Assembly (NCBI GenBank): GCA_951828535.1 | Contig: OX639990.1 | Span: 1,227,300 to 1,291,299 of the forward strand | From: an uncultured Candidatus Entotheonella sp. | GTDB lineage: Bacteria > Tectomicrobia > Entotheonellia > Entotheonellales > Entotheonellaceae | Length of the DNA stretch: 64,000 nt | Direction: 5' to 3' | Part shown: piece after piece, positions 48,886 to 57,949 of the stretch | How positions within the stretch are numbered: the first letter of the stretch is position 1 | Layout: every line of letters begins with the position of its first letter | Made by a program: the position numbers and the translations under genes | Notes under the pieces: generated by a model | Told to the model about the DNA's origin: nothing | The model's database searches: none | The model's input: only the letters and a program-made list of their open reading frames with translations

Positions 48886-49206
48886 ATGACACAACGATTC
48901 GTCTACTGCGGGAAGCTTCAAAAAGAGGCTCCTGGTATTGATGAGGATGAGCTTCAGGGCAGCATTGCCTTGGAAATGATTGAATCGCTGGGCGGGGCTG
49001 AATTACGTCAACGTATCCATGAAAACATCTCCATGGAGGCTTGGGAATTGTGGAAAGGCTTCCTGACGATGATTCTAAATGAATACCGTCTGAATGTCAT
49101 GGACCCACAAGCCGACGAGTTCATCCGTCAGCAAATGGAAGAGTTCTTTTTCGGCGAAGGCGCTGCCCTGCCGCCAGGGTACGTTCCGCCAATGGGCAAG
49201 GGCTAG
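48886..49206 (+). CDS. yggX: Fe(II)-trafficking / oxidative damage protection protein YggX
   Basis: The 106-aa product matches the YggX family across its core: a Cys near residue 7 (FVYCGKLQKEAPG), NISMEAWELWKGFLTMILNEYRLN, and DPQADEFIRQQMEEFFFG. Family members are thought to protect iron-sulfur clusters or carry iron; the biochemical role is not settled. It has AAAAGG 7 nt before ATG 48886. It ends 1 nt before the proposed start of a radical SAM gene, whose cluster it could serve. Confidence 0.9.
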   Translation: MTQRFVYCGKLQKEAPGIDEDELQGSIALEMIESLGGAELRQRIHENISMEAWELWKGFLTMILNEYRLNVMDPQADEFIRQQMEEFFFGEGAALPPGYVPPMGKG

Positions 49207-49207
49207 C

Positions 49208-50638
49208 TTGAGAGCGGCATCCGTTAGGGTGGCCACAGTGCGTGTCGTACTCCTCGCAACCTATGAATTGGGACGGCAGCCTTTTGGCTTGGCTTCCCCT
49301 GCCGCTTGGCTACGACAGGCAGGAGCGACGGTTCGGTGCCAGGATTTGTCACGCAGTCGCCTGGACCGTGGGGCCATTCTGGCGGCCGACCTTGTGGCCT
49401 TCTACATCCCCATGCACACCGCAACGCGGATTGCCATCCAGGTTGCGAAACACGTCAAGACCCTTAACCCGCAAGCTCACCTCTGCTTCTATGGCCTTTA
49501 CGCCCCCATGAATGACCGATTGTTACGCGAACTGGGGGCCGCCACCCTGCTCGGTGGGGAATTTGAATCTGGGCTGTTACGACTCGTGCAATATCTTCAG
49601 ACAGATTCCACACCCCCTGCCCAATCGCCGGAAGTCGTCACTTCCCTGGATCGCCAACAGTTTCAGGTACCTGATCGGCGCGATTTACCCCCCCTGCCAG
49701 TTTACGCCCAACTCAAAATAGGCGAGCGGTCACACGTCGCCGGCTACACGGAAGCCAGCCGCGGCTGCAAACACTTCTGTCGCCATTGTCCGATCGTGCC
49801 GGTCTATGAGGGCCGCTTTCGCATCGTGCAGAGGGACGTCGTCCTGGAAGATATCCGGCGCCAGGTCGCGGCCGGCGCCGAGCACGTGACCTTTGGCGAC
49901 CCCGATTTTTTCAACGGTATCGGCCACGCCATGCCGTTGGTGCATGACCTGCACCGGGAGTTCCCCAGCCTCACTTACGACGTCACCATCAAGATAGAAC
50001 ACCTGTTGCGGTATACCGAGCATCTGCCCACCCTCCGCCAAACCGGCTGCCTGATGGTGACGAGCGCCGTGGAGTCCGTCCAGGATGGCGTTCTGCGTCT
50101 GCTCGATAAAGGCCACACCCGACAGGATTTTCTCCAGGCTCTGGCCCGGTGCAGGCAAGCCGGAATTTGCCTCAATCCGACCTTTGTCGCCTTCATGCCC
50201 TGGACCTTTTTGCCCGACTATATCGACTTACTGGCCGTAATCGCCACGCAAGGTCTGATCGAACACGTCGCGCCCATCCAACTCGCCATGCGTTTGCTGA
50301 TCCCTGACGGCTCCAAACTACTTGACCTGCCCGAAATGGGTCTGTCGCTGCGGGAATTCGACGCCGACGCCCTGTCGTACCGCTGGGAACATCCCGACGT
50401 ACGGATGGATGGCCTCTGCGCGGAGGCGCTCCAATTGGTCCAAAGCGGTGAGGCGGAAGGCGCCGGCCGCTATGAGATATTTGAACGCCTCTGGCACGCC
50501 GCCCACAAGGCCGCCCAAATTCCCGCTCCGCTGGTGCCCGCCCCCGTTGCCCCGCCAGCCCGTGGGCCCGTTCCTTACCTTGATGAGCCGTGGTATTGTT
50601 GAGCGGAACCCACCGAGGAGCAGGTTGCTCCGTTCTAG
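49208..50638 (+). CDS. Radical SAM selenoprotein with Cys-Sec-Ala-Glu-Pro tail
   Basis: Radical SAM enzyme of unknown substrate. Residues about 15-140 form a Rossmann-like domain similar in outline to cobalamin-binding N-domains but without the usual His motif. The iron-sulfur motif is C187-KHF-C191-RH-C194. The ORF would end at TGA 50600-50602, after Trp-Tyr-Cys. If that TGA is selenocysteine (residue 465), the tail reads Cys-Sec-Ala-Glu-Pro and runs 11 more codons to TAG 50636, total 476 aa. A SECIS-like hairpin follows the TGA. I recall an NCBI family named for a CUAEP/CCAEP tail. The start is uncertain: TTG 49208 (AAGGG 5 nt upstream) or GTG 49229. Confidence 0.88.
50600..50636 (+). promoter_or_regulatory. 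In-frame UGA and bacterial SECIS element of the radical SAM gene
   Basis: After TGA (50600-50602), GGAGC (50617-50621) pairs with GCTCC (50627-50631) around the loop AGGTT. A lower stem of GGAAC (50605-50609) with GTTCT (50632-50636) is stacked on it, leaving a 7-nt bulge on the 5' side. The apical loop starts 20 nt after the UGA. Distance and G-containing loop fit the bacterial SECIS pattern recognised by SelB; the loop resembles AGGUCU of E. coli fdhF. Confidence 0.75.
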
Positions 50639-50690: not shown

Positions 50691-51962
50691 ATGGCAACAC
50701 CCGACGTCGGCCGTTCCCGGCTCATGCTCCTGTATACGACGACAGGGTATGAGGCACGAGAATTCATACGGACGGCTCAGCAACTCGGCGTGGAAACGGT
50801 GCTCGGCAGCGACCGCTGTGATGTTCTGGACGATCCCTGGGAAGACGATGCCGTGCCGCTACGGTTTGAGCGCCCACAGGAAGCCGCACGGCGCATCGTC
50901 GAGGTTGCTGGGCAGCAACCCGTCGCCGCCATTCTCCCCGTGGGCGACACCCCTCTTCTCAGCGCCGCGAAAGCGAGCCGGGCGTTGGGTTTGCTGCACA
51001 ATCCACCGGACGCCGTGCTGTCCAGCCACAACAAATACCTCATGCGCCAGCGCCTGCAAGCGGCTTTTGCGCAAGTGCCGGCTTTTATGTGTTTCCCGAT
51101 GCAAACCGACCCCCGTCTCGTGCAACACGAGGTTCCATACCCATGTGTCGTTAAGCCGCTCGCCCTGTCGGCGAGTCGCGGTGTCATGCGGGCCGATACC
51201 CCGGCCGAATTTATTGCCGCCTTCCTTCGATTGCGCGCCTTGCTGGAACGGCACGAAATACGCCAGAAACAAGATGAAGCCAACGAAGGGATCCTCATCG
51301 AAAGTTTCATTCCCGGTGCCGAGGTCGCCCTGGAAGGTCTGTTAACCGCCGGCCGTCTGCAACCGTTGGCCCTGTTTGATAAGCCCGACCCGCTGAACGG
51401 TCCTTTTTTTGAAGAAACCCTCTACATCACGCCTTCCCGTCTCAGTGCGGACCTGCAGGCCGAGATCGTCCGCTGCGCCGAACAGGCAGCCCTTACTCTG
51501 GGTCTCTGCCACGGTCCCTTGCACGCCGAATTTCGGGTCAACAGCCAAGGCCCCTGGCTCCTCGAACTCGCCGCCCGGCCCATCGGCGGCTTGTGAAGCC
51601 GCTCGCTGCGCTTTGGGACCGGGATGTCCCTTGAAGAGCTGCTCATCCGTCACGCGTGCGGCCTCCCTCTGCCCTCTCTGAAACGCGAGCAGGCTGCTGC
51701 CGGCACTATGATGCTACCCATTCCCCGCGCTGGTTTTCTCAAACATGTGACGGGCCTGGACGCGGCACTCAGCCTTTCCGGCATCGAAGATGTTGTGATC
51801 ACCGCCAAGCCGCATGAGAAACTCCAGCCCTTCCCCGAGGGCGCCAGTTACCCCGGGTTCATTTTTGCCCGCGGTGAAACCCCACAGGCGGTCGAACAGA
51901 CCCTGCGCGAGGCCCATCGACGCCTGCATCTGGTCATCACGCCCAGCCTCGACTTGCTTTGA
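50691..51962 (+). CDS. ATP-grasp ligase selenoprotein
   Basis: ATP-grasp enzyme resembling L-amino-acid ligases and related carboxylate-amine ligases. The N-terminal Rossmann domain (LMLLYTTTGYEAREF) leads to the ATP-grasp core, with PYPCVVKPLALSASRGV near residues 143-161, ILIESFIPGAEVALEGL, and LLELAARPIGGL. The ORF would stop at TGA 51594-51596, directly after Gly-Gly-Leu. Read as Sec302 it continues SRSLRFGTGMSLEEL and on through a typical C-terminal domain to TGA 51960-51962 (423 aa). Homologues I recall have Cys at this position (GGLCAR). ATG 50691 has GGGGA about 7 nt upstream. It follows the radical SAM gene by 52 nt. Confidence 0.88.
51594..51639 (+). promoter_or_regulatory. In-frame UGA and bacterial SECIS element of the ATP-grasp gene
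   Basis: After TGA (51594-51596), GGGAC (51615-51619) pairs with GTCCC (51626-51630) around the loop CGGGAT. A lower stem of CTT (51611-51613) with AAG (51634-51636), extended by GC/GC across a mismatch (51608-51609 with 51638-51639), supports it. The apical loop begins 24 nt after the UGA and has G at its second position, consistent with bacterial SECIS elements. Confidence 0.7.
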
Positions 51963-52250: not shown

Positions 52251-53603
52251 GTGACCAACTTGCACACCGCGGGCTGGGCCCGCACCCACAAATGGCAGGC
52301 CGTGAAACGCACGGCCTGCACCCTCGGGCTCTCGCTTGTCCTGTTGGCGGGACTGATGGGCACCGGCGCCATGGCACAGGAGCCTATCAAAGTAGGCGTG
52401 TTGCATTCGCTGAGCGGCACCATGGCCATCAGTGAGGGACCCCTCAAGGAAGTCATCCTCATGGCCATCGAGGAACTCAATGAGGCTGGTGGGGTGTTAG
52501 GGCGCCCTGTCGAGCCGATCGTGGAAGATCCCGCCTCGAACTGGGATCTCTTCGCCGAAAAGGCGAAGAAACTTCTGACGCAGGATGAGGTGGCGACGGT
52601 ATTCGGCTGCTGGACCTCGGTGAGCCGCAAGTCCGTGCTGCCGGTGTTTGAGCAGTACAACGGCCTCCTTTTCTACCCTGTCCAGTATGAGGGCGAGGAG
52701 TGCTCCAAGAACGTCATTTACACCGGTGCGACGATCAACCAGCAAGCCTCTCCCGCGGTGGATTACCTGATGAGCCCGGAAGGCGGCGGCAAAAGGCGCT
52801 TCTACCTTATAGGTACGGACTACGTCTACCCGCGCACCACGAACAAAATCCTGCGGCTCTACCTCACCAAGGCCAAGGGCGTCATGGAGGCCGGCATCGC
52901 TGAGGAATACACGCCGTTTCACCATCAGGACTACCAGACCATCGTCGGCAAGATCAAAAGCTTCTGCGCCGGCGGTGATGGCGCTGTGATCAACACCATC
53001 AACGGCGACAGCAATGTGCCGTTTTTCAAGGAACTGGCCAATCAGGGCATCACGGCCGACACCTGCCCGGTCATTTCGTTCAGCTTTGCCGAGGTGGAAT
53101 TGCAAACCCTGGACGTTAAGCCCCTGGCCGGCCACCTTGCCTCCTGGAACTACTACATGTCGCTGAAGTCCCCGCAGAACTTTAAGTGGGTGAAGGCGTA
53201 CAAGAAATGGTGCGAAAAGCGCGGCATACCGGACAAACAGTGCGTGACCGATGATCCGATGATGCACGCCTACATACACGTCAAACTGTGGGCCAAGGCC
53301 GTCGAGAAAGCCGGCAGTACGGACGTCGAAGCGGTCCTCAAGGCACTGGAAGGTCTGACGCTCAGCAGTCCCGTTGGCAATTACAAAGTCGACGAGAAGA
53401 ACCATCACACCTGGAAGCCGGTCTACATCGGCAAAATCCGCGAAGATGGTCAGTTCGACGTCGTGTGGAAGACCAAGGAGTGGGTGCGGCCCCTGCCGTG
53501 GAGCGAGTTGACCTATCCCGGTCGGGCCTGCGATTGGAGCGGCGACGGCCTGGGAACCTATGATATGGTGAACGGCAACCGCAGCTGGCTGTCTCAGCAA
53601 TAA
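52251..53603 (+). CDS. urtA: Urea ABC transporter, substrate-binding protein UrtA
   Basis: Periplasmic urea-binding protein. The 450-aa product has a long signal peptide (hydrophobic core LGLSLVLLAGLMGTGAMA, cleavage near residue 42) and a type I periplasmic-binding fold with IKVGVLHSLSGTMAISE, GCWTSVSRKSVLPVFE and NQQASPAVDYL. It starts at GTG 52251 with AAGGAG 6 nt upstream. First gene of urtABCDE. No urease genes are in the window. Confidence 0.94.
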   Translation: MTNLHTAGWARTHKWQAVKRTACTLGLSLVLLAGLMGTGAMAQEPIKVGVLHSLSGTMAISEGPLKEVILMAIEELNEAGGVLGRPVEPIVEDPASNWDLFAEKAKKLLTQDEVATVFGCWTSVSRKSVLPVFEQYNGLLFYPVQYEGEECSKNVIYTGATINQQASPAVDYLMSPEGGGKRRFYLIGTDYVYPRTTNKILRLYLTKAKGVMEAGIAEEYTPFHHQDYQTIVGKIKSFCAGGDGAVINTINGDSNVPFFKELANQGITADTCPVISFSFAEVELQTLDVKPLAGHLASWNYYMSLKSPQNFKWVKAYKKWCEKRGIPDKQCVTDDPMMHAYIHVKLWAKAVEKAGSTDVEAVLKALEGLTLSSPVGNYKVDEKNHHTWKPVYIGKIREDGQFDVVWKTKEWVRPLPWSELTYPGRACDWSGDGLGTYDMVNGNRSWLSQQ

Positions 53604-53669
53604 CGCCTTGCGAGCGGGGGAATGCCTGGGCGTTCCCCCGCAACCGTTTCAAGCACGCGGAGACCTGAA

Positions 53670-55298
53670 TTGTTACGCATCCTGACCTTCCTGCTGGTCG
53701 TGTGCTGTGCCGGCGGCGCGTTGCCCAACGCGTCGGTCGCGGCTGACACGCCCGCCGACTATGCCCAGGACCTCGCCACGCTCGCTACCCAGCGGGCCAC
53801 CCTCGAGCAAATCCGTGACCTCGCCGACCCGGCCTTCCGGGGCCTGCTCCAGGCCTTGAAGGAAGGCGCCCTGTATAGTTGGCCGGAAGGCCTCCTTATT
53901 TTCACCGATGACGGGGTTTTTGTAGACCTCGCCGGCACTCCGCTGCTCGACGCCGCCGGTGAGGCCATTTTCCCCGAGGAGGGTCTTGAGCAGGTCCCCT
54001 TAGAGGAAGAAAACATCCCGCTAGTGCAACGCGCTCTTGACGTTATCGCACTTTTTGCCTCGGATCCGGGTGCGCGGCGCTCGACCGCTCTGCGCCTGGG
54101 GAACATGCGCGACGTATCTCTCATTCCCATCTTGACAAAGGCGCGCGACGCGGAACCGGATGCCGTGGTGCGCAATGTCCTTATCGAGGCCGTCAACAAA
54201 TTGCAATTGTTCGCGCCGGAAGCGCAGGCACGGCGCGCGGCCGTCAACTACTTCGGTGACACGCGCTCGGAAGCCGCGCTGAGCCGTTTACGCGACATGC
54301 GCCAGCAGGAACCCGACCCCCAAGTACGGGCCGCGGTCGTCGGAGCTATCGAAACCATTGAGAATTTTCTGCTTGTTCGCAACACCGTCGGCTACATCTT
54401 CAACGGCGTGAGTCTCGCCTCCGTCCTGATGATCATGAGCCTGGGACTCGCGATTACCTTCGGACTGATGGGCATCATCAACATGGCGCACGGCGAAATG
54501 CTGATGATCGGCTCGTACACCGCCTACGTGCTGCAAGAATTCTTCACCTCACACCTGCCGGGTTATCTTGACTATTACTTCATCTTGGCCTTGCCCTTAT
54601 CCATCCTAACGGCGGGCTGTGTCGGCCTGTTGATGGAACGCGGCATCCTGCGTTTCCTGTATGGCCGCCCGCTGGAAAGCCTGCTCATCACGTGGGGTAT
54701 CGGCATGGTGCTGCAACAGGGCGCGCGTCTTTATTTCGGTGATCAAACGAGCGTCAGTCCGCCCACTTGGTTTCGTGGCGGATGGGAGGTCATGCCAGGG
54801 CTCATTTTCCCCTATAGCCGGCTCTTCATCATTGCCCTGTCGGCGTTCGCCCTTGCCATGGTGTATCTGCTGCTGTATCGCTCCAACGTCGGCCTGCGTG
54901 TCCGTTCGGTGATGCAGAATCGCGACATGGCCGCCTGCATCGGCATTTCCACACGCAAAGTTGACGCCCTCACCTTCGCGCTCGGTACCGCTTTGGCGGG
55001 GCTGGCGGGTTGCGCTTTGAGCCTCATCGGAACCGTGGACCCGGAGGTAGGCAAGACATATATTGTCGATTCATTCATGGTCGTGGTGCTGGGCGGGGTC
55101 GGTAAACTGTTCGGCACGGTCCTGGCTTCCGGCATCGTCGGCATGTCGAACAAGCTTCTGGAGCCGCTGATCGCCGGCACCGCCGCTGCCGTTTACGCCA
55201 AGGTCAGCATTCTCGTGCTGGTCATCATTTTCCTGCAGATCAGACCCACGGGTCTCTTCCCGGCCAAGGAACGCACGGCCGCAGGCGCGCTGCGATAA
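53670..55298 (+). CDS. urtB: Urea ABC transporter, permease UrtB
   Basis: Membrane subunit of the LIV-H type. The 542-aa product has a signal peptide, an extracytoplasmic N-terminal extension of about 220 residues with helical HEAT-like repeats (typical of UrtB), and a C-terminal membrane domain from about residue 230 with GLMGIINMAHGEMLMIG. I choose TTG 53670 (GGAG 7 nt upstream), placing the signal peptide at the N-terminus; ATG 53622 would add 16 polar residues. Confidence 0.92.
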   Translation: MLRILTFLLVVCCAGGALPNASVAADTPADYAQDLATLATQRATLEQIRDLADPAFRGLLQALKEGALYSWPEGLLIFTDDGVFVDLAGTPLLDAAGEAIFPEEGLEQVPLEEENIPLVQRALDVIALFASDPGARRSTALRLGNMRDVSLIPILTKARDAEPDAVVRNVLIEAVNKLQLFAPEAQARRAAVNYFGDTRSEAALSRLRDMRQQEPDPQVRAAVVGAIETIENFLLVRNTVGYIFNGVSLASVLMIMSLGLAITFGLMGIINMAHGEMLMIGSYTAYVLQEFFTSHLPGYLDYYFILALPLSILTAGCVGLLMERGILRFLYGRPLESLLITWGIGMVLQQGARLYFGDQTSVSPPTWFRGGWEVMPGLIFPYSRLFIIALSAFALAMVYLLLYRSNVGLRVRSVMQNRDMAACIGISTRKVDALTFALGTALAGLAGCALSLIGTVDPEVGKTYIVDSFMVVVLGGVGKLFGTVLASGIVGMSNKLLEPLIAGTAAAVYAKVSILVLVIIFLQIRPTGLFPAKERTAAGALR

Positions 55299-55317
55299 GG
55301 AAGGTTAAGCCGCGACC

Positions 55318-56481
55318 ATGAAACACACCTCGGCTTGGAAAGAAGCGCTGCTCCCGGGCGCTCTGCTCGCGGTGATCCTGGTAATCGGCCTGCCGCTGCT
55401 GAATGCCGCCGGTTACGTCTCCGACTACTACCTCAACCTGTTCGGCAAGTACCTGTCGCTGGCCGTTCTGGCCATGGGCATGGCCCTCATTTGGGGATTC
55501 TCCGGCATCCTGAGTCTGGGGCAAGCCATTTTCTTCGGCATTGGCGCCTACTCATTCGGCATGTACCTGATGCTCGAATCGAGCGGTAAAGGCGTGTACG
55601 GAGAGGCCATTCCCGACTTCATGGTGTGGAACCAGGTTACCCAGCTGCCGTTGTACTGGAAACCCTTCCACTCCCTGCCCTTTGCCCTGGCCGCGGCCCT
55701 GCTGTTGCCGGTCGTAGCCGCCACCATTATCGGCTTTCTGACGTTTCGGCGGCGCGTCGGCGGCACCTACTTCGCCATTCTGACCCAGGCCATGGCTTTC
55801 GCCACGTGGTTGATGTTCAACCGCAACGAACTCAACCTCGGCGGCACGAACGGTCTCACGGATTTCAAGAGCGTACTGGGTTATCCGCTGAGCGAGCCGA
55901 GTACACAACGCGGGTTGTACCTGTGCACCGCGCTTCTGCTCGTCGTCAGTTTTTTCATCTGCCGCTGGCTGGTGGGCTCGAAAATGGGGTTGGTGCTGAC
56001 CGCCATGCGCGACCAGGAGCAGCGCCTGCGGTTTCTGGGCTATCCGGTCGCCTCGTACAAGATCTTCATTTTCGCCGTGGCAGCGGCCTTGGGTGGTCTG
56101 GCCGGCGCTCTGTACGTGCCGCAAGTCGGCATTATCACGCCCAGCCAGATCGGTGTTTTGCCATCGCTGGAAATTGTCGTCTGGGTCGCCACCGGCGGGC
56201 GCAACAGCCTCATCGGCGCGATCATCGGCGCGGTGGGTATCAATGCGGCGCGCAGCGTCCTGACGGCTCGCTTTCCGGAATGGTGGCCGGTGATCCTGGG
56301 CAGCCTGTTCGTGGCCGTCGTCCTGTTCTTCCCCGATGGCGTCGTCGGCATCCCCAGCCAGTGCCGCCGCGGCATCCGGCGGCTGCGCGCTCGGCTTGCC
56401 GGCGCTCCGGCCCGTCGCCCAGAACCGGGGCCACGCCCAAGCGAGCAGCCGGCGCCAACCGTTAGCCGGTCCGACGGCTGA
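55318..56481 (+). CDS. urtC: Urea ABC transporter, permease UrtC
   Basis: Second membrane subunit, LIV-M type. The 387-aa product has about ten hydrophobic segments, the GFSGILSLGQAIFFGIGAYS motif and a Pro/Arg-rich cytoplasmic tail of about 40 residues. It starts 19 nt after urtB. Confidence 0.93.
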   Translation: MKHTSAWKEALLPGALLAVILVIGLPLLNAAGYVSDYYLNLFGKYLSLAVLAMGMALIWGFSGILSLGQAIFFGIGAYSFGMYLMLESSGKGVYGEAIPDFMVWNQVTQLPLYWKPFHSLPFALAAALLLPVVAATIIGFLTFRRRVGGTYFAILTQAMAFATWLMFNRNELNLGGTNGLTDFKSVLGYPLSEPSTQRGLYLCTALLLVVSFFICRWLVGSKMGLVLTAMRDQEQRLRFLGYPVASYKIFIFAVAAALGGLAGALYVPQVGIITPSQIGVLPSLEIVVWVATGGRNSLIGAIIGAVGINAARSVLTARFPEWWPVILGSLFVAVVLFFPDGVVGIPSQCRRGIRRLRARLAGAPARRPEPGPRPSEQPAPTVSRSDG

Positions 56482-56494
56482 CAGGGAGCGACAC

Positions 56495-57247
56495 ATGGAA
56501 CAACAACGTGGCACCATCATGTACATCGAGGACATCACCGTCACGTTCGACGGCTTCCAGGCGCTGAAAGAGGTCGACTTTTACGTGGACCACGGCGAGC
56601 TGCGCGCCTTGATCGGTCCCAACGGGGCCGGCAAAACGACCTTGCTAGACGTTATCTGCGGCAGAGCCAGGCCGGATACCGGGCGCGTCGTCTTCGGCCA
56701 GCGAACCGACCTCAGCAAGCTTGAGGAACACGAGATCACCTTGCTGGGCATCGGGCGTAAATTCCAGACTCCCACCGTTTTCAAGAATCTCACGCTCATC
56801 GACAATCTCACCCTCGCCCTGCGTTTCCGCCGCGACGTGATGGCAACCCTGTTCGGTGCCCTGACCCGCAGCCATACCGACAAAATTAATTCGACTTTGC
56901 AGACCCTGGGGTTGGAACAGAAAGCCCAAAATAAGGCCGGGGCGCTGTCGCACGGCGAGATGCAATGGCTGGAGATCGGCATGGTGATGGTGCAGGAACC
57001 GGCGCTTTTTCTGCTGGACGAGCCGGTTGCCGGCATGACCCGGGAAGAACGCGAGAAAACCGGGGAGATCCTGCAGGACTTGGCCAAGGAGCACGCCGTG
57101 CTGGTGGTTGAGCACGACATGGAATTCGTGCGCCAGACGGCCCACCGGGTAACGGTTCTGCACGAAGGACGGATTCTCTGCGAGGGCTCGGTGGCGCACG
57201 TGCAAAGCGACCCCCGCGTGGTCGAAGTCTATCTGGGAAGGGGTTAG
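56495..57247 (+). CDS. urtD: Urea ABC transporter, ATP-binding protein UrtD
   Basis: Cytoplasmic ATPase of the transporter. The 250-aa product has Walker A GPNGAGKTT, a signature LSHGEMQWLEIG and Walker B LFLLDEPVAGM. ATG 56495 is preceded by AGGGAG with 6-nt spacing; an earlier in-frame ATG at 56336 lies inside urtC. It follows urtC by 13 nt. Confidence 0.94.
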   Translation: MEQQRGTIMYIEDITVTFDGFQALKEVDFYVDHGELRALIGPNGAGKTTLLDVICGRARPDTGRVVFGQRTDLSKLEEHEITLLGIGRKFQTPTVFKNLTLIDNLTLALRFRRDVMATLFGALTRSHTDKINSTLQTLGLEQKAQNKAGALSHGEMQWLEIGMVMVQEPALFLLDEPVAGMTREEREKTGEILQDLAKEHAVLVVEHDMEFVRQTAHRVTVLHEGRILCEGSVAHVQSDPRVVEVYLGRG

Positions 57248-57253
57248 CCGGCG

Positions 57254-57949
57254 ATGCTTACCATCCACGACCTGTGCGTGAGTTACGGCGAAAGCCAAGT
57301 GCTCTGGGACGTCGGCCTGCACGTTCCGGCCGGTCAGGTCGTCTGCCTCATGGGACGCAACGGCGTCGGCAAAACGACACTGCTGAAGAGCGTCATGGGG
57401 CTCCTGAAGCCCCGCACCGGCGCCATCACGTTCCGGGACAGACCGCTCACCGCGCTGTCTTCCGACCGCCGCGCCCGGCAGGGCATCGGCTATGTGCCGC
57501 AGGGCCGCGAAATCTTCCCTGACATGACCGTCCTCGAAAATCTCCGCATCGGCCTCATCGCTCAGGGCCTGCCCACTGCCACCATCCCGGACGACATCTT
57601 CGAGCTTTTCCCCGGCCTGCAAACCATGCTGCACCGCAAGGGCGGCTACCTCAGCGGCGGCCAGCAACAGCAATTGGCCATCGCCCGCGCCCTCGTCACT
57701 CGCCCCCAACTCCTCCTCCTCGACGAGCCCACCGAGGGCATCCAGCCCTCCATCATCCTGGAGATCGAAGCCATCATCCAGCGCCTGAAAGAAGCTGGCA
57801 ATATGGCTATCCTGCTCGTCGAACAATACGTCGAGTTCGCCAGCCGCCTCGCTGACCACGTCTTTGTCATGGAGCAAGGCAGCATCGTCCTGGAAGGCAA
57901 GCTTGATGACATGTCGGACGCGGACCTCCAACGCTACTTGGCGTTCTAA
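57254..57949 (+). CDS. urtE: Urea ABC transporter, ATP-binding protein UrtE
   Basis: Second ATPase, LIV-F type. The 231-aa product has Walker A GRNGVGKTT, signature LSGGQQQQLAIARAL and Walker B LLLLDEPTEGIQPS. It lies 6 nt after urtD and completes the transporter. No clear intrinsic terminator follows in the 141-nt gap to the next gene. Confidence 0.95.
   Translation: MLTIHDLCVSYGESQVLWDVGLHVPAGQVVCLMGRNGVGKTTLLKSVMGLLKPRTGAITFRDRPLTALSSDRRARQGIGYVPQGREIFPDMTVLENLRIGLIAQGLPTATIPDDIFELFPGLQTMLHRKGGYLSGGQQQQLAIARALVTRPQLLLLDEPTEGIQPSIILEIEAIIQRLKEAGNMAILLVEQYVEFASRLADHVFVMEQGSIVLEGKLDDMSDADLQRYLAF

Follow-up and report, generated by a model that had tools for sequence, protein, structure and literature searches.

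Gene organization at the locus

The window analyzed here is a stretch of 64,000 nucleotides from an uncultured Candidatus Entotheonella sp. (contig OX639990.1), on whose forward strand a YggX-type gene, a radical SAM gene and an ATP-grasp ligase gene lie close together (Table 1). The ligase frame opens with ATG 50691 and, as a sequence-only reading of this DNA had pointed out, is interrupted within a domain by a TGA at codon 302, right behind Ile-Gly-Gly-Leu. Beyond it another 121 in-frame residues lead to a second TGA (51960-51962), which is the real stop of the gene. Pfam domains ATP-grasp_4 (residues 149-303) and LAL_C2 (341-416) flank TGA302 in one frame, so that a single protein family extends across it. 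The gene is probably misannotated in sequence records, since standard annotation would stop at residue 301. Ordinary annotation would likewise end the radical SAM gene at 50602, dropping its Sec and last 11 residues. Downstream of the ligase (52251-57949), reading of the sequence indicates genes resembling an ABC transporter set for urea or branched-chain amino acids, comprising a substrate-binding protein, two permeases and two ATPases.

Table 1. Features of the ligase locus, in window coordinates
Feature	Position	Strand	Basis
YggX-type Fe(2+) trafficking/oxidative damage protection protein, recurrent neighbor	48886..49206	+	PF04362, PRK05408
CUAEP-tail radical SAM selenoprotein (NF040546), probable GTG start, end ..EPWYCUAEPTEEQVAPF	49238..50638	+	633 bits
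Sec-encoding UGA of the radical SAM tail	50600..50602	+	sequence
Hairpin GGAGCA-GGT-TGCTCC downstream of the radical SAM UGA, bSECIS candidate	50617..50631	+	
ATP-grasp ligase of the L-amino acid ligase type; 423 residues including Sec302	50691..51962	+	Pfam, AlphaFold, Foldseek
UGA codon for Sec302, opposite an otherwise invariant Cys	51594..51596	+	alignment
bSECIS candidate, hairpin 51615-51630 within a 23-nt identical stretch	51609..51631	+	conservation, bSECIS constraints

Residue 302 among homologs

The same reading had predicted Cys at this site in relatives, and had named homologs lacking it as grounds for rejecting a selenoprotein. Among 88 aligned homologs, residue 302 is Cys in 84 (every one of the Cys type), is encoded by TGA in four, and is never anything else, an invariance on a par with that of K155, E280 and R296 of the ATP-grasp domain. 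The Cys-type homologs are spread over Acidobacteriota, Chloroflexota, Thermomicrobiota, Rokubacteria, NC10, Poribacteria, Nitrospirota, Pseudomonadota, Myxococcota and others. The four with TGA at the identical codon belong to three genera of one family in the window's own phylum (Tectomicrobia group), namely the window genome, a congener and two members of other genera, and their orthologs share 67-91% protein identity. In a maximum-likelihood tree these Sec forms make up a single branch among the Cys forms (support 100/100); because the tree is unrooted, it does not fix the direction of the change between Cys and Sec. Two phyla, represented by 396 and 95 genomes, yielded no further Sec form, with position 302 read directly only at the retrieved loci, and a search of viral contigs gave no match. 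Four other sequences (G124, G031, G475 and L023) were considered as additional TGA homologs and rejected, as they have Cys at 302 and their TGA lies 5' of the gene, at its end or outside the aligned protein. A second, cysteine-type ligase copy, about 50% identical, is present in the Sec-form genomes (L022, L023, L021); its examined flanks lack a CUAEP gene.

Evidence for read-through of UGA302 as selenocysteine

Judged from substitution patterns, the sequence 3' of TGA302 is under purifying selection: dN/dS beyond the codon is about 0.09-0.27, and similar upstream where both could be calculated. Between UGA302 and ATG 51624 lie nine codons whose changes are synonymous, so that the protein sequence is kept, including the SR-x-LRFGTG of the family. 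This constraint, together with the conserved nine codons, argues against the two ways in which the TGA could be taken as a true stop. An open reading frame does begin at ATG 51624, and one might suppose a split enzyme in which translation ends at TGA302 and restarts there to give two assembling chains; synonymous change in codons that such an enzyme would leave untranslated speaks against this, as do the relatives, which are single chains with Cys, and the AlphaFold model, in which a restart would drop the helix holding residue 302. We regard a split enzyme as very improbable. To a nonsense pseudogene or sequencing error, with the TGA disabling and the downstream part decaying, we give practically no credence: a lone in-frame stop looks like a nonsense mutation, but this one is shared, at one codon, by all four Sec-form genomes and their three genera at the divergence given above, is followed by coding sequence with low dN/dS and a constrained 23-nt hairpin region, and would have had to strike precisely the invariant Cys.

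A genome without selenocysteine machinery would also have favored a pseudogene, and here the complete set was found. The genome encodes tRNA-Sec (73.9 bits, detected by ARAGORN as well), SelA (606 bits) and SelB (363 bits), which adjoin each other, and SelD (319 bits).

The hairpin described in the sequence-only reading lies exactly where it was placed, beginning 18 nt past the TGA, with GGGAC (51615-51619) and GTCCC (51626-51630) enclosing the loop CGGGAT; as a fold by itself, however, it is not significant. Bacterial SECIS elements are expected to have a loop of 3-9 nt, a stem of 4-16 bp, a G in the first two loop positions, a spacing of 16-37 nt and an energy <= -7.5 (PMC13188914). The SECIS prediction that had been suggested as a check agrees with these constraints (loop of 6 nt beginning CG, stem of 5 bp, spacing of 23 nt, -7.8 kcal/mol for a 28-nt fold), with a borderline energy in that the stem scored alone gives -6.6. 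Its folding energy is not unusual (z -0.8), equally good hairpins occur behind 10-30% of codons in these genes, and a search of Rfam returned no convincing family. Without its conservation the hairpin would thus be weak evidence. That conservation exceeds what protein coding demands: the longest run identical in the four Sec-form coding sequences is 23 nt, CGCTTTGGGACCGGGATGTCCCT (51609-51631), spanning the whole hairpin, against 10 nt for the runner-up in the ligase gene, with 52% of nucleotide columns identical overall. Cys paralogs with the same amino acids use different codons that break the stem (e.g. GGT ACC GGC ATG TCG in L021). The stem is invariant in all four Sec-form genomes and so gives no covariation test. 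On the combined evidence of alignment, selection and hairpin conservation, the gene almost certainly encodes a selenoprotein in which UGA302 is read as Sec under the direction of the conserved downstream hairpin, with Cys in its place in relatives.

Ligase class and the position of Sec302

Sequence comparison gave the L-amino acid ligases BL00235 (3vot, E 4e-37) and BacD as the best solved relatives, and Foldseek with an AlphaFold model of the ligase (mean pLDDT 90.7) likewise gave 3vot and 3vmm as top matches. The protein has the ATP-grasp_4 and LAL_C2 domains and the fold of L-amino acid ligases; no NCBIfam model matches it, the best curated match scoring 101 bits where 625 are required. By this analogy the enzyme is, with high probability, a carboxylate-amine ligase of the L-amino acid ligase type.

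The claim that Sec lies beside the metal-site segment of the ATP-grasp domain is right by homology, with E280 and E292 followed by R296-x-x-G-G. Residues E292, R296 and G299 align with E324, R328 and G331 of BacD, G300 with Trp332 and residue 302 with Met334, where BacD numbers have been shifted by two for an inferred chain offset. Trp332 has been described as a key residue of the BacD pocket (PMC6920838). Sec302, in the first turn of helix 300-305 of the AlphaFold model, falls two residues beyond the equivalent of this specificity residue and just past the R296-x-x-G299-G300 acyl-phosphate loop, a position from which it probably lines the amino-acid pocket. The sequence-only reading suggested that Sec may contribute to catalysis or bind metal, which is plausible; the BacD alignment points to the amino-acid pocket over the Mg2+ ligands.

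Linkage to a radical SAM selenoprotein

The ligase had been called a second selenoprotein, and its neighbor indeed belongs to the radical SAM family NF040546 (633 bits, cut-off 500) and has the CUAEP tail. A CUAEP gene lies within about 6 kb at 34 of 80 homologous ligase loci (22 with a C-U tail, 12 with C-C), and more than half have none within that distance. These CUAEP-free loci, and the cysteine paralogs in the same genomes, imply that the ligase family is not bound to CUAEP everywhere. In the window's phylum the Sec ligase sits beside CUAEP in all four CUAEP genomes, and a fifth genome has neither. In the phylum to which the Rokubacteria record G013 belongs, 58 of 95 genomes have both genes, 5 and 8 have one or the other singly, and 24 have neither (Fisher p 3.5e-11, in a test that ignores shared ancestry). 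The ligase and CUAEP genes are, by gene neighborhood and co-occurrence, linked across several phyla, and it is likely that the two proteins act in one pathway. The adjacent selenoenzymes of the window point to an undescribed, two-step selenium-dependent pathway.

Other genes recur at these loci. Of 85 neighborhoods, 22 have a YggX-type gene near the ligase and 17 an Nfu-type gene; many lineages have the one or, in its stead, the other beside the ligase (YggX was named by Pfam for the gene in the window, Nfu from reading the sequence). Their presence suggests a supply of iron or Fe-S clusters for the radical SAM enzyme. In Chloroflexota and Thermomicrobiota a gene read from its sequence as formyltransferase-like often follows the ligase (11 loci, L037, L043, L045, L052 and L088 among them).

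One may speculate further that the CUAEP radical SAM enzyme, the ligase and an iron-handling protein of YggX or Nfu type constitute an undescribed pathway of roughly ten phyla, in which the ligase is mainly of the cysteine form, and that its product is a peptide-like metabolite or a cofactor that bears a metalloid or chalcogen and is handled at soft-ligand sites (C-U and Sec302) in both enzymes, a reading we hold to be unlikely in this full form. The pair might also make an organoarsenic amino acid or peptide, with the ligase coupling the product of an ArsL-like partner. The second-best match of the radical SAM protein is the ArsL family, NF040542, and ArsL has been predicted to attach the 3-amino-3-carboxypropyl group of SAM to As(III) (PMC8552651). 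The partner nonetheless scores only 273 bits against the ArsL cut-off of 450, no ars genes were recognized in the identified part of the clusters among recurrent neighbors, and an arsenic antibiotic would be expected to have a narrower distribution than the many phyla seen here, all of which makes an organoarsenic product rather improbable.

A possible mechanism and the role of selenium

Most probably the ligase would phosphorylate a carboxylate with ATP-Mg to an acyl phosphate and then couple this to an amine; the product of the adjacent CUAEP radical SAM selenoprotein would probably serve as a substrate. As this partner is distantly related to ArsL, a natural guess is that it supplies the ligase with an amino acid. 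Sec302 may bind a soft (sulfur-, selenium- or arsenic-bearing) group of the substrate in the pocket, or alternatively may keep an essential thiol position more reactive and resistant to oxidation; by analogy with solved ligases we put forward this pair of roles tentatively, at rather less than even chances.

Sec might instead act as a redox switch or guard against over-oxidation of an essential Cys position, being neither substrate nor metal ligand. The oxidative damage protection gene of YggX type near the ligase, here and in the neighborhoods counted above, would suit such a role, as would the fact that most lineages tolerate Cys, but no conserved partner Cys lies nearby in sequence, and we judge a redox role possible though on balance unlikely. 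C152 is Cys in 83 of 88 rows of the alignment. Still less probable, in our view, is covalent catalysis, in which the selenolate would attack the acyl phosphate to form a selenoester ahead of amide formation. Residue 302 is suitably placed behind the acyl-phosphate loop and is invariably Cys or Sec; yet solved L-amino acid ligases function without Cys there (Met in the aligned BacD), and ATP-grasp ligases transfer straight from the acyl phosphate.

Taken as a whole, a selenoprotein of the L-amino acid ligase type that probably shares a pathway with its radical SAM neighbor is with considerable confidence the best explanation of the locus.

Novelty and comparison with known systems

What appears to be new is an ATP-grasp enzyme of the L-amino acid ligase type with Sec replacing an invariant Cys; its partner family NF040546 is already catalogued. 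Thiol-redox folds account for the bulk of selenoproteins, and if the present reading is true the ATP-grasp superfamily joins the Sec-using enzymes beyond them. It would also reveal a universally conserved Cys in a widespread, uncharacterized ligase family, link that family to a catalogued radical SAM selenoprotein of no known function, and offer a two-enzyme reaction for reconstitution, for which natural Sec and Cys versions can be compared. The 119 prokaryotic selenoprotein families tabulated in a 2026 review (Table 1 of PMC13188914) include neither an ATP-grasp ligase nor a CUAEP radical SAM protein. In the literature searched we found no account of CUAEP, of Sec in an L-amino acid ligase or of a Tectomicrobia selenoprotein, where predictions in other papers or supplementary tables are possible.

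Among known systems, the CUAEP/CCAEP-tail radical SAM family NF040546 is a linked neighbor of the ligase but a different enzyme. ArsL, the radical SAM enzyme of arsinothricin (NF040542), is a distant relative of the partner, which falls under its family cut-off, and the terms ATP-grasp and ligase are absent from the arsQML paper (PMC8552651). BL00235 (3vot), BacD/YwfE (3vmm, 3wnz, 3wo1) and RizA (4wd3) have the same fold, domain order and LAL_C2 domain as the Sec ligase, as well as the same positions of the ATP-grasp Lys and Glu and the same R-x-x-G segment; they differ in sharing only about 17-26% identity with it, in their partner genes and in having no Cys at position 302 in the alignments shown. 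The combination of a UGA codon, a downstream bSECIS and Cys-containing homologs is, in turn, that of the known prokaryotic selenoprotein families (PMC13188914).
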